Assembly (NCBI RefSeq): GCF_002154725.1
Contig: NZ_MTAW01000192.1
Location: 1-52,628 of the forward strand
Length of the DNA: 52,628 nt
Direction of reading: 5' to 3'
Source of the DNA: Nostoc sp. 106C
GTDB taxonomy: Bacteria; Cyanobacteriota; Cyanobacteriia; Cyanobacteriales; Nostocaceae
This document shows positions 21,033-37,620 of this stretch, piece by piece (positions within the stretch are counted from its first letter, which is position 1; each line of letters starts with the position of its first letter). Made by a program: the position numbers and the translations under genes. The notes below the pieces were generated by a model. That model saw only the letters and a program-made list of their open reading frames with translations, had not been told where the DNA came from and did no database searches.

Positions 21033-21439
21033 ATGCCTAAAACTAGTCAAATTGTTATTAATACTTCTCCCTTAATCGCTCTTGTTGCAGCTTTAGGAGA
21101 CTTAAGGATTTTACCGTTTCTTTATCAGGAAGTTCTTGTTCCCTTTGAAGTCTCCCAAGAAATCATCTTAGGGGTAAAAACAGGATTTGCTGTAACTGAG
21201 TTTTAAGCTGCATCTTGGTTACAAATACAAACTTCTGCTTTATTAATTTCTCCCTTGTTACTCAACTCCCTAGATTTAGGTGAAGCATCAGTAATTCAAC
21301 TAGCATTAAATAAAAACATACCTACAGTTTGTATTGATGAGGCAGTTGGGCGAGGAATTGCTAGATTAAGCGGTCTTTTGGTCACAGGCTCAATAGGGAT
21401 TTTGCTACGTGCTAAACGGGAAGGATATCCGTTATATCT
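21033..21439 (+). pseudogene. 5' part of a broken DUF3368 (PIN-like) toxin gene
   Basis: From ATG 21033 the frame reads MPKTSQIVINTSPLIALVAA, with the PIN-domain NTSPL start, to VTEF and a TAA at 21204-21206. It then continues in the same frame through SLDLGEASVIQLALNKN, VCIDEAVGRGIARLSGL and LLRAKREGYPLYL. These are DUF3368 motifs with the acidic residues expected of a PIN nuclease. At 21440 it runs into a MITE. The correct C-terminal end is found at 37153-37240 on the opposite strand. The gene is thus hit by a nonsense codon and by a MITE, and is split. Confidence 0.88.
21430..21439. repeat. Target-site duplication half, CGTTATATCT
   Basis: This 10-bp sequence abuts the left end of the MITE. 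Its partner is not at the right end of this MITE but, inverted, at 37241-37250 next to the other copy. The right end of this copy has GAATATAGTG (21635-21644), whose partner is CACTATATTC at 37439-37448. Confidence 0.9.
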
Positions 21440-21634
21440 CAATGCAGTTCAGTTAAGAAAATTCATTGACAACAAAGCTCATAAATAATTACTAAACAAA
21501 AAACCGAACAATTATTTTGGAGGGGGCTTGGGGGACGCAACCGTCCCCCAATCGGGGGTTTGGGGGATTCTCCCCCAAATCTTGGTTTTTGTCCGACAGA
21601 TGAGAACTCTTATCACCTTAACTGAACCGTATTG
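21440..21634 (+). mobile_element. MITE copy A (195 bp)
   Basis: The left end CAATGCAGTTCAGTTAAG (21440-21457) and right end CTTAACTGAACCGTATTG (21617-21634) are inverted repeats with two differences. The interior has G-run/C-run palindromes (GGGGG…CCCCC) and no gene. It is the inverted partner of 37251-37438, which matches over nearly the whole length; copy A differs mainly by GACGCAACCGTC in one loop. The ends and the 10-bp duplication point to a transposase-mobilised, non-autonomous element. I do not name its parent IS family. Confidence 0.88.
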
Positions 21635-21647
21635 GAATATAGTGGAC

Positions 21648-21675
21648 AATGCTCAATGCCCCATGCTCAATGCCC
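21648..21675. repeat. Heptanucleotide tandem repeat (STRR)
   Basis: Four 7-mers in register: AATGCTC, AATGCCC, CATGCTC, AATGCCC. It lies just outside the MITE. Confidence 0.65.
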
Positions 21676-21833
21676 ATTCCCAAAACCTTAAAATATGCCA
21701 AGAAAATAGGCTTTAAGCGTCTGTTGACTGTAACGATCAGCTAAGTCAGACCAAAACTATCCTACTAGCTGAATGCAGCGTTGAAGATAGGGTAATAGCC
21801 CTGAGTTCGGGTTATAAGAACAGGAGGTTAATT

Positions 21834-22877
21834 GTGACGAAGTTGAAAGTTGGCATTAATGGATTTGGTCGTATCGGGCGGCTTGTGCTTCGCGCTGGCA
21901 TTAATAATCCCAATATCGAGTTTGTAGGGATTAACGACCTAGTACCACCAGATAATCTTGCTTATCTGTTCAAATATGACTCAACCCACGGTAAGTTTAA
22001 AGGTAAAGTTGAAGCTAGGGAAGATGGCTTCGTTATTGATGGACATTTTATCCCTTGCGTATCGATTCGCAACCCAGCAGAGTTGCCTTGGGGTCAATTG
22101 GGTGTAGATTATGTAGTGGAATCTACAGGACTTTTCACAGGTCAAGAAGGCTCGACAAATCACCTTAAGGCTGGTGCAAAGCGTGTAGTAATTTCTGCTC
22201 CTACCAAAGATCCAGAACTAGTTCCTACTTTACTGATGGGTGTCAATCATCACCTATTTGATCCCAGCAAGCACACTATTGTTTCCAATGCCAGCTGTAC
22301 GACAAACTGCCTGGCTCCTGTAGCTAAGGTGATCAATGACAACTTCGGCTTGACCGAAGGGTTGATGACCACAGTTCATGCCATGACTGCCACCCAACCA
22401 ACAGTAGACGGTCCCAGCAAGAAGGACTGGCGAGGTGGTCGGGGTGCAGCCCAGAATATCATTCCTTCTTCTACAGGCGCAGCGAAAGCTGTAGCACTGG
22501 TTTTACCAGAATTGAAGGGCAAGTTAACTGGTATGGCGTTGCGAGTTCCTACTCCCGATGTTTCTGTGGTTGACTTAACTTTTAAGACAGCCAAAGCTAC
22601 TAGTTACAAAGAAATATGCGCGGCGATGAAAGCAGCCGCTGAAGGCGACCTAAAAGGCATACTTGGCTACACTAACGAAGAAGTAGTTTCTACAGATTTT
22701 CAGGGTGATACTCACTCTAGTATCTTTGACGCAGGTGCTGGGATTGAACTGAATTCAAACTTCTTCAAAGTGGTTGCTTGGTATGACAACGAGTGGGGCT
22801 ACTCGAATCGTGTAGTTGATTTGATGTTGTCAATGGCACAAAAAGAAAAACTCGCCCCAGCAGTTGCTTTGGCTTGA
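21834..22877 (+). CDS. gap1: Glyceraldehyde-3-phosphate dehydrogenase, glycolytic type (Gap1)
   Basis: The start is GTG 21834 with AGGAGG 6 nt upstream. The 347 residues contain the NAD-binding [16 protein letters not shown], catalytic [16 protein letters not shown] (~152-167) and [17 protein letters not shown]. The [18 protein letters not shown] segment follows the NAD-type (E. coli-like) pattern rather than the plastid Calvin-cycle Gap2 pattern. It therefore likely serves sugar breakdown. pyk follows in the same direction, making a lower-glycolysis pair. Confidence 0.9.
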
Positions 22878-22912
22878 TTAGTCATTAGTCATTGGTCATT
22901 GGTCATTAGTTA
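22878..22912. repeat. Heptanucleotide tandem repeat (STRR)
   Basis: Five 7-mers in register directly after the gap1 stop codon: TTAGTCA, TTAGTCA, TTGGTCA, TTGGTCA, TTAGTTA. Confidence 0.75.
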
Positions 22913-35698: not shown

Positions 35699-36072
35699 AA
35701 ATTATTGTAAGAGTATCTCTGAGCTACCTAATAGAGACGAAGAAACCTGATGTATCTTTGCCGTCAAATTGATATTTTCTTGATTTAGCCCTCAGAAACC
35801 AATTTCTAGGATGAAAATACTGTGGGCTTTGAGATAATCAATCAGGTTTTTAATACATCTCAGTATTCCTAGTTCATTAAACTGCTCACAGTGGACTGAG
35901 GTGATGATTTGTAATTTTATTTAGTATTCAGCAGTCTAATTGAGATATCCTCATATCGCTTCAGAGTGTAACACCCCCCTGCTGTTTTGGCGATCGCGAC
36001 CATCAGCCACACTGTTCATAAAGTGAAATAGTATAAGTAGTTGATGCCTACTTGCAATATTTCTCAGCTTCT
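35699..36072. other. Intergenic region upstream of mtnA
   Basis: A divergent region with a HIP1-like GGCGATCGCG at ~35988. No gene or relic is seen. Confidence 0.4.
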
Positions 36073-37134
36073 ATGACATATTCCTTAAACCAGGTTTATC
36101 CCGTTATTTGGCACAACGACTCGGTATCACTTATCGATCAAACTCGCTTACCCAACGAGTATGCTTTTGTGGAGATTCACCGCAGTGAAGATATGGCAAG
36201 GGCAATTAAAACGATGATTGTCCGAGGTGCGCCAGCAATTGGTGTAGCAGCAGCTTATGGAATCTATCTTGGGGCGAGAGAGATTGAAACTAGTAACCGT
36301 AATGAATTTTTACAACACTTAGAGCAAGTTGCCCAATTGTTGCGTTCCACACGTCCGACAGCGGTAAATTTATTTTGGGCCATTAGCCGCATGATGAAAA
36401 CTGCCTATGAAACCTTGGGAACAGTAGCAGAACTCAAACAAACTCTGCTACAAACTGCTCAAGCAATCAATGCTGAAGATTTGCAAACTTGTCAGGCGAT
36501 CGGTGACAATGGCTTGGCAGTATTGCCTAAAAACCCTGCCAAGCTGACAATTCTGACTCATTGCAACGCTGGGGCGTTAGCTACTGCTGGTTACGGCACA
36601 GCCTTGGGTGTGGTGCGTTCTGCTTGGCGAGAAGGGCGTTTAGTGCGTGTGTTTGCCGACGAAACCCGTCCCCGCTTACAAGGTGCAAAACTCACTGCTT
36701 GGGAATGTGTTCAAGAAGGCATTCCTGTTACAGTCATCACAGATAATATGGCTGCTCATTGCATGAAGCAAGGATTAATTCATGCGGTTGTTGTTGGTGC
36801 CGATCGAATTGCTGCTAATGGCGATACAGCTAATAAAATTGGCACCTATAGCGTAGCGATCGCAGCTAAAGCCCATAATATTCCTTTCTTTGTCGCTGCT
36901 CCCCTCTCTACCGTTGATTTTGAATTATCCGATGGCAGCCAAATTCCCATTGAAGAACGTAATCCTACAGAAATTTATCAAGTAGGTGATACTATTCTTA
37001 CGCCTGAAGGTGTTGAATTTTATAATCCGGCTTTTGATGTCACCCCAGCAGATTTGATTACAGCCATCATCACAGAAAATGGTGCATTCGCTCCTGGCGA
37101 ACTAGCAAAATCAAAGGTAAAGCAAGTAGTTTAA
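36073..37134 (+). CDS. mtnA: S-methyl-5-thioribose-1-phosphate isomerase
   Basis: The enzyme isomerises methylthioribose-1-phosphate in the methionine salvage pathway. I chose ATG 36073 ([13 protein letters not shown]); a TTG at 36052 would add seven residues. Family motifs are [32 protein letters not shown], the catalytic Cys in [36 protein letters not shown] and [20 protein letters not shown]. The length, 353 residues, is normal. Confidence 0.94.
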
Positions 37135-37152
37135 ATTCATGATATTTGCTGA

Positions 37153-37250
37153 TTATTCCCCCGCTTCCTTGATTGCAAAATCAATCACAGTTTGGCTTAA
37201 GCGAATATTGTGATTGAGCATTTTTTTAATAGCAGTTTTTAGATATAACG
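37153..37250 (-). pseudogene. 3' part of the split DUF3368 toxin gene
   Basis: On the minus strand, directly after the end of MITE copy B and the 10-bp CGTTATATCT, the frame reads L-KTAIKKMLNHNIRLSQTVI then DFAIKEAGE to TAA 37153-37155. This is the typical DUF3368 C-terminus. Joined to the 5' part at 21439 with one copy of the 10-bp sequence, it continues GYPLYL-KTAIKKML in frame. The two halves are therefore one gene separated by a MITE and an inversion. Confidence 0.85.
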
Positions 37251-37438
37251 CAATACGGTTCAGTTAAGGTGATCAGAGTTCTCATCTGTCGAACAAAAAC
37301 CAAGATTTGGGGGAGAATCCCCCAAACCCCCGATTGGGGGAGAATCCCCCAAGCCCCCTCCAAAATAATTGTTCGTTTTTTTTTAGTAATTATTTGTGAA
37401 ATTTGTTGTCAATGAATTTTCTTAACTGAACTGTATTG
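37251..37438 (-). mobile_element. MITE copy B (188 bp)
   Basis: The ends CAATACGGTTCAGTTAAG (37251-37268) and CTTAACTGAACTGTATTG (37421-37438) are inverted repeats with one difference. The sequence is the reverse complement of copy A over nearly all its length. Flanks are AGATATAACG (37241-37250) on the left and CACTATATTC (37439-37448) on the right. These do not match each other but are the complements of the two flanks of copy A. Confidence 0.88.
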
Positions 37439-37620
37439 CACTATATTCGGGTTTTGGTGAGCTATATGATATTTAGTAAGATCACGCCTGTCATAACCAA
37501 CGCTACAATTTTTGTTACATTCAGTTACATTTAGCAGAGCGATTTTCAACCAAAAATCCAAATTGGTATGATTGATTGTTGCCAAAAAAGCGATCGCTCA
37601 TCGGCTGATAAAATTGCTTC

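Follow-up and report, generated by a model that had tools for sequence, protein, structure and literature searches.

Exchanged target duplications point to a probable inversion of a 15.6-kb core carbon-metabolism block by recombination between two inverted MITEs in Nostoc sp. 106C

Introduction

In Nostoc sp. 106C, a block of core carbon-metabolism genes lies between two MITE copies, A and B, in opposite orientations, and each copy is flanked by two different 10-mers that reappear as complements beside the other. Was this block turned round in the chromosome, and if so, by what event? A first-pass annotation had read the swapped 10-mers as the trace of recombination that inverted everything from gap1 to mtnA, had given misassembly as the alternative, and had hinted at an active switch. 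Here we analysed the locus in a stretch of 52,628 nucleotides (contig NZ_MTAW01000192.1), called the window below, together with the MITE family of the same genome and the gene order in seven relatives of the genus.

Results

Copy A (195 bp; 21440 to 21634, + strand) and copy B (188 bp; 37251 to 37438, − strand), which has its own altered hairpin core, both terminate in inverted repeats, CAAT[A/G]C[A/G]GTTCAGTTAAG. Four end-repeat matches were observed against 0.32 expected, and four or more occurred in none of 100 shuffles. The elements have the characters of MITEs, being short and multi-copy with terminal inverted repeats and a target duplication; standard copies measure 188 to 196 bp, with 18-bp ends and 10-bp duplications. 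Copy A gave 47 matches in the same genome, counting fragments as well as A and B themselves. Our copy list is a lower bound of at least 40 copies, as 40 of 87 first-look candidates were scored. No long open frame was seen in the MITE, in which it differs from IS4-family insertion sequences, whose ends we take its own ends to resemble. An element of about 417 bp on contig C48 carries a fragment of the IS4 N-terminal domain (PF13006), and its ends are three mismatches from the MITE ends. No intact autonomous IS4 partner was found in this genome by a PF13006 search, which covered that family only and gave one match, a fragment. The MITE had no match in the plasmid collection.

A simple insertion should leave equal 10-mers on both sides of a copy, as the first-pass annotation had assumed, and the family behaves in this way. 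Target duplications were concordant (two mismatches or fewer) in 28 of the 32 two-ended copies, with 22 identical pairs, five with one mismatch and one with two. This set holds the copies with both ends readable, including C78 counted with its far end, and leaves out those cut by contig ends. The discordant copies were C62 (three mismatches), A and B (six each) and C22 (seven). Flanks fitting those of the last, C22:33656, were present in no other copy of the 32. A search for its right flank beside MITE ends gave eight places (two mismatches or fewer) compared with ten in a backwards control, and no partner was identified among them. Parts of this right flank match separate places in the relative G007, among the matches listed.

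Copy A is preceded by CGTTATATCT (target X; 21430 to 21439, + strand) and followed by GAATATAGTG (target Y; 21635 to 21644, + strand). Copy B has the complement of X, AGATATAACG, on its left (37241 to 37250, − strand) and the complement of Y, CACTATATTC, on its right (37439 to 37448, − strand). The reciprocal exchange is exact, as had been claimed, and each 10-mer and each complement occurs once in the window. When the left flank of each copy was compared with the right flank of every other (992 ordered comparisons), the only two exact cross-matches were those between A and B, one in each direction, and 20 comparisons matched with one or two mismatches. The 10-mer CCTGATAATC recurs beside copies at unrelated sites, C149 on the one hand and C77/C32 on the other. 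The chance of an exact exchange is somewhat greater than 4^-20, because MITE targets are A+T-rich and alike.

The segment between the two copies (21635 to 37250; 15,616 bp) contains gap1, pyk, tal, orf26061, metK, prk, petH, hom, orf34061 and mtnA, and the 3' part of a DUF3368 gene. On its left lie genes for an ABC transporter ATPase (19597 to 20751, + strand), which adjoins mtnA in G002, G003, G006 and G007, and a UPF0175 protein (20705 to 21019, + strand; PF03683, E 2.1e-20), next to the split DUF3368 gene on its upstream side. On its right lie genes for an Rpn-family nuclease/putative transposase (37621 to 38436, + strand; TIGR01784, no Pfam match), which adjoins gap1 in G006, and a phosphoketolase, XFP (38494 to 40875, − strand), which adjoins gap1 in G002 to G005 and G007 and lies past the Rpn gene in G006. 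The protein scan covered 16 proteins (10 Pfam, 10 NCBIfam, 4 both); orf26061 and orf34061 had no Pfam match. A composite transposon with a 15.6-kb cargo was considered and rejected, as its outermost 10-mers, to the left of A and to the right of B, differ.

We examined target X by joining the left flanks of the two copies. The 5' part of DUF3368, which contains an in-frame TAA, lies at 21033 to 21439 (+ strand) and the inverted 3' part, 15.7 kb away, at 37153 to 37240 (− strand). The joined sequence aligned unbroken (bases 1 to 492, join at 407) to the DUF3368 region in all five close homologues tested (L076 to L080); on the assembled A side, homology to DUF3368 homologues ends at, or just before, the MITE. 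With Pfam PF11848, one half covered positions 1 to 16 and the other 21 to 46, each below the cut-off, and the joined sequence covered 1 to 46, above it. The DUF3368 homologues that run through the join sit elsewhere in relatives, and UPF0175/DUF3368 is absent from this place in the relatives inspected.

At target Y, the joined right flanks were identical to contig C47 of G006, the closest relative, across the junction, where a single GAATATAGTG and no MITE are present. The gene order of the window was found in none of the seven relatives. The gap1-XFP neighbourhood was present in six of the seven and ABC-mtnA in four; the whole un-flipped block lies on one contig in one of them (G003, contig C116), where the segment is opposite to its flanks as compared with the window, and G002 and G004 to G007 have one or both ancestral junctions. 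The order in the window is thus derived, because its flanks rejoin into DUF3368 and into the empty site of G006, no relative shares it, and G003 has the opposite one. This comparison, which the first-pass annotation had proposed, supports its reading of an inversion from gap1 to mtnA. A gap1 scan of named genomes returned mostly distant organisms among the best 80 matches listed. The nearest of these, Nostoc foliaceum FACHB-393 (90%), has gap1-pyk-tal and adds nothing on the breakpoint, because no XFP gene lies within 10 kb upstream of gap1.

These arrangements, read from sequence, suggest that the block was most probably turned round by recombination between two independently inserted, inverted MITEs. 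Two non-autonomous copies, whose ends are IS4-like and whose target duplications measure 10 bp, would have inserted independently in opposite orientations, one inside DUF3368 at target X and the other between gap1 and the Rpn gene at target Y. Later homologous recombination between them would have flipped the intervening 15,616 bp, leaving one X and one Y flank at each copy, the halves of DUF3368 15.7 kb apart, and the block from gap1 to mtnA reversed relative to the ABC and XFP genes.

A misassembly would look exactly alike, because the un-flipped order is the order of the relatives: the real chromosome would be un-flipped, and the assembler or scaffolder would have swapped the two MITEs. The draft genome consists of 240 contigs and contains at least about 40 copies of this repeat, seven of which end no more than 10 bases from the edge of their contig (C180, C107, C17, C77, C117, C32 and C31). 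Confusion through a third copy can be imagined, because the longest runs that third copies have in common with A (up to 110 bases) and with B (up to 91; both reached by L004) exceed the run common to A and B. Such an error, however, would be expected to draw in the flanks of the third copy, and the exchange involves A and B alone. From the altered core of B (about 37340 to 37345) it is about 105 bp to the far end of the 10-bp flank on each side; by our own calculation, reads of 125 to 150 bases, if such were used, would link the core to both flanks. There are no Ns in the window. Misassembly, the alternative raised by the first-pass annotation, keeps the long runs of third copies on its side and is nevertheless disfavoured, because A and B differ, with a longest identical run of 49 bp, and joins across the repeat are usually consistent, as the 28 concordant copies indicate. 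We regard it as unlikely, and infer that the inversion exists in the cell, beyond the assembly alone.

The same exchanged flanks could arise in one step by transposase, if a single MITE carrying target X had attacked site Y in the orientation that inverts the DNA between them, through either replicative intramolecular transposition or the pairing of sister-copy ends. By our own reasoning, the flank pattern would be identical to that left by recombination, and the legend to Figure S1 of PMC2775673 gives sister-chromatid copies as the origin of an inversion with a copy at each end. Copies made in this way would be identical at birth, whereas 16 columns of the alignment distinguish A from B, and deletions occur in B only. 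Among 26 other copies, the state of A was found in 9 and that of B in 17 at column 39, in 10 and 16 at column 155, and in 18 and 7 at column 173. A and B do not have the look of fresh sister copies, because these columns hold alternative states common to other copies. A transposase-made inversion by either route is accordingly very improbable in our judgement, and general recombination would have joined the copies.

Recombination also has points against it. The identity of 49 bp is short for efficient homologous recombination, and chimeric copies would be expected, yet an in-silico swap of A and B at every column, compared with the nearest other copy, brought no improvement (the reference set of 24 copies leaves out A, B, C22 and C78). 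This result gives no support for a crossover and does not speak against one either, for the comparison has little power: 224 of 276 control pairs likewise showed no gain, and 52 gained 1 to 4.

Inverted repeats at both ends of the segment would in principle permit repeated flipping in the population that alters gene expression, a special case of the recombination reading whose probability overlaps with it. The active switch hinted at by the first-pass annotation found no support: the split DUF3368 gene is further interrupted by an in-frame stop, and the MITE would cut it whichever way the segment lies. In either order gap1 keeps about 200 bp of its upstream sequence, the Rpn-family gene is the only one with a recombination-related name among the 16 scanned proteins, and the short A-B identity likewise argues against a switch. 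A standing reversible switch is barely credible to us. It is only slightly less far-fetched that the MITEs still recombine, perhaps aided by the hairpin cores and not by long identity, and that both orientations of the core carbon block (gap1, pyk, tal, prk, petH and adjoining genes) therefore occur among cells of the strain.

Discussion

The steps of the rearrangement favoured here, recombination between two inserted MITEs, can be placed in order, because a relative shows one pre-insertion site and homologous genes allow the other to be deduced. If the inversion is real, the order of core metabolic genes in Nostoc-like genomes can be altered by elements of 190 bp that have only short identical runs in common. 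Target duplications, compared throughout a MITE family, also offer an inexpensive means of detecting inversions or misjoins in draft genomes.

The event is a well-resolved case of an already known kind, with no new mechanism. In the literature searched (titles and abstract openings, which give no proof of absence in print), no MITE-pair inversion in Nostocales was found. A passage of a review (PMC10969869) describes prokaryotic MITEs, like IS elements, as hotspots of homologous recombination. The inversion mentioned there is that of the Correia element itself, whereas in Nostoc the segment between two MITEs is inverted. Nezha, a MITE family said to be active in cyanobacteria, is a likeness by its title in the reference list of that review. 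A close likeness is the Galileo-generated inversion 2z3 of Drosophila buzzatii, which, in the parts of PMC2775673 consulted, has opposite copies at the breakpoints, exchanged target duplications and a single target in the un-inverted arrangement. The Galileo copies are demonstrably chimeric and single targets are described at both breakpoints, whereas in Nostoc the swap of A and B revealed no chimerism and only target Y is seen in place; the Nostoc case is bacterial, spans 15.6 kb and involves elements of 190 bp.

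Two inverted MITE copies with exchanged target duplications

We re-read the window and found, as the first-pass annotation had stated, two MITE copies in opposite orientation bordered by four 10-mers. Copy A (21440–21634, 195 bp) and copy B (37251–37438, 188 bp) enclose a segment of 15,616 bp (21635–37250). The targets to the left (X) and right (Y) of A recur as complements to the left and right of B, respectively; all of these 10-mers and complements are unique within the window. A single consensus describes the 18-bp ends, and the window holds four matches to it where 0.32 would be expected. 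A and B differ at 16 alignment columns, some of them B-only deletions, and their longest identical run is 49 bp. A ViennaRNA calculation on the two sequences alone predicted strong hairpins for both copies as single strands (−34.3 and −32.9 kcal/mol). In the core hairpin of B (37309–37350), the neighbouring GGGGGAGAATCCCCC is repeated in place of the usual core, which may be a template-switch change.

Reconstruction of the target sites

Joining the left flank of A to the complemented left flank of B gave a continuous reading frame that contains X once. The joined stretch was 527 bp long with the join at 407, and bases 1–492 aligned unbroken with all five close homologues, the DUF3368 regions (L076–L080) of the genus relatives G001 and G003 to G006 (77–79% identity, 0–4 gaps). 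When the A side was compared as assembled, the homologue match ended between positions 398 and 407 of 527, either at the MITE or immediately before it. The alignments covered the close homologues; the more distant ones have 29–35% identity, and no close DUF3368 homologue was found in G002 or G007. Against Pfam PF11848 (DUF3368), the first half matched positions 1–16 (E 2.1e-4) and the second 21–46 (E 6.4e-4); neither reached the curated cut-off, which the joined halves, matching 1–46, exceeded (E 2.6e-12). The joined product aligned over 1–164 in G001, G003, G005 and G006 at 77–79% identity and in two pieces in G004; in the window it aligns as two halves only, 21033–21470 (+) and 37156–37251 (−). 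The first half contains an in-frame TAA, and thus the gene is broken a second way. Where a relative has a close match, its UPF0175/DUF3368 pair sits elsewhere (e.g., G006 contig C35), so the unoccupied site X is inferred from homologous genes. Here the pair (20705–21439) lies between the ABC gene and mtnA, indicating that it was moved or gained.

At site Y, the complemented right flank of B and the right flank of A joined around one GAATATAGTG. The same junction without the MITE, ...CACCAAAACCC GAATATAGTG GACAATGC..., is present on contig C47 of G006, the closest relative among the matches listed (92–94% identity in six blocks, 88% in the ABC block). Its matches to 37439–39500 and 21635–24752 overlap by exactly the 10 target bases (C47:14577–14586).

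Gene order in relatives

Gene order was compared among the matches listed in seven other genomes of the genus, whose genomes are about 8–10 Mb, and positions were checked by translated searches. In a separate scan of named genomes, the nearest gap1 among the matches listed was that of Nostoc foliaceum. The order of the window was found in none of the seven. gap1 adjoins the phosphoketolase gene XFP, or Rpn-XFP in G006, in six (G002–G007, not G001), and ABC adjoins mtnA in four (G002, G003, G006, and G007). A single contig of G003 (C116) carries ABC (+), mtnA to gap1 all reversed, and XFP, an arrangement equal to the window order with its middle reversed, except for about 6.7 kb of additional DNA between metK and orf26061. 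The block is split over two contigs ending inside it in G006 and interrupted between orf26061 and metK in G002 and G007. G004 and G005 retain the block and the gap1-XFP end, with ABC elsewhere or not found whole, and in G001 XFP, mtnA, and ABC are all elsewhere. Together, the joined gene at X, the empty site Y in G006, and the reversed block in G003 support the earlier reading of an inversion.

No MITE was detected in the breakpoint stretches tested in relatives (L059–L068). With 21 of 66 candidates scored in each genome, neither G001 nor G006 matched this MITE at E 0.001. In G002, a MITE relative sits within the same block of genes (C1:428623–428778), flanked by the matches to hom and orf34061.

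The MITE family and the possibility of misassembly

Copy A has at least 47 matches, counting fragments, in the genome around the window (8.66 Mb, 240 contigs), with 40 scored out of 87 first-look candidates. The two-ended set comprised 32 copies, L001–L028 and the elements on C185, C141, C62, and C149; the C62 and C141 elements also appear as L029 and L030, and copies running off contigs were left out. The 10-bp flanks were identical in 22 copies and had one mismatch in five and two in one; these 28 of 32 agree with the earlier premise that simple insertion gives equal 10-mers. The discordant copies were A and B (six mismatches each), C22 (seven), and C62:23313–23594 (L042; three), a longer copy of about 280 bp. 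Two further long copies, on C141 and C185 (about 300 bp), are flanked by perfect duplications.

Among 992 ordered left/right comparisons between different copies, the only exact matches were the two between A and B. The targets are A+T-rich and resemble one another, so 20 further comparisons matched with one or two mismatches. The 10-mer CCTGATAATC flanks MITEs at two unrelated places in mutually opposite orientation, the C149:37768–37925 region (L032) and the ends of C77 (L037) and C32 (L039). A single shared 10-mer can thus come from target preference, at which this reuse hints; two shared 10-mers at once in an exchanged pattern are another matter. The C77 and C32 ends are complementary halves bearing CCTGATAATC and may be a single element.

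An assembly artefact would yield precisely the pattern at A and B. Seven copies lie at contig ends, showing that the MITE repeat troubles this assembly, and the longest runs that third copies have in common with A and B reach 110 and 91 bases, respectively. However, flanks are concordant in 28 of the 32 copies, A and B are distinct enough that k-mers longer than 49 would keep them apart, and some 105 bp separate the B-only core from the outer end of either flank. Misassembly is therefore unlikely, and we consider it highly probable that the inversion is real, whether by recombination or by transposase.

Several other elements were observed. At C31:10–107, C32:30839–30935, and C117:1–97, the contigs terminate at the hairpin-core centre (column 98/99) or no more than 9 bases away, as would happen if sequencing or assembly halted there. 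The C22 copy (C22:33656–33850; L026:1501–1695) has degenerate ends, and in G007 two separate places each match part of its right flank. It is possibly a second rearrangement; no partner was found among the 32 copies read at both ends. A ~417-bp element at C48:35388–35549 (L074:1395–1811) carries an IS4 N-terminal domain fragment, has ends three mismatches from those of the MITE, and may be what remains of the element that supplied the family's transposase. The same ends are paired 162 bp apart at C41:44571–44732, C152:22284–22445, and C201:27049–27210. These pairs, perhaps a second, shorter subfamily, do not appear among the copy A matches from the 40 scored candidates of 87.

Origin and consequences of the probable inversion

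The simplest history, as the flanks are exchanged, is that one MITE would have inserted at X and another at Y in opposite orientation, and that recombination between the copies would then have flipped the segment. A one-step transposase-driven inversion from a single MITE would, by reasoning, leave the same flanks, and a related case appears in a figure legend of PMC2775673. Such a history makes the copies identical at birth, whereas A and B differ at their 16 columns, and we regard it as very improbable. Columns 5, 38, 65, 98, and 99 carry a private change in A or B. At columns 39, 155, and 173, the A/B states split 9/17, 10/16, and 18/7 among the other 26 copies; the presence of both states fits separate lineages for A and B. 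A chimerism test (nearest-copy comparison after in silico A/B swaps) gave no signal for A/B, as for 224 of 276 control pairs without gain. Speculatively, the hairpins of A and B may aid recombination.

The inversion probably had little effect. About 200 bp upstream of gap1 travelled with gap1, as did the whole of mtnA. The only gene seen cut is DUF3368, with its additional stop, and the MITE would truncate it whichever way the segment lies. No sign of a regulated switch emerged.

PMC2775673 takes an exchange of target duplications between inverted copies as evidence of ectopic recombination, and A and B show the same pattern. Prokaryotic MITEs are called recombination hotspots in PMC10969869. 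The probable A/B inversion is a new, well-resolved instance of an already known kind of event.
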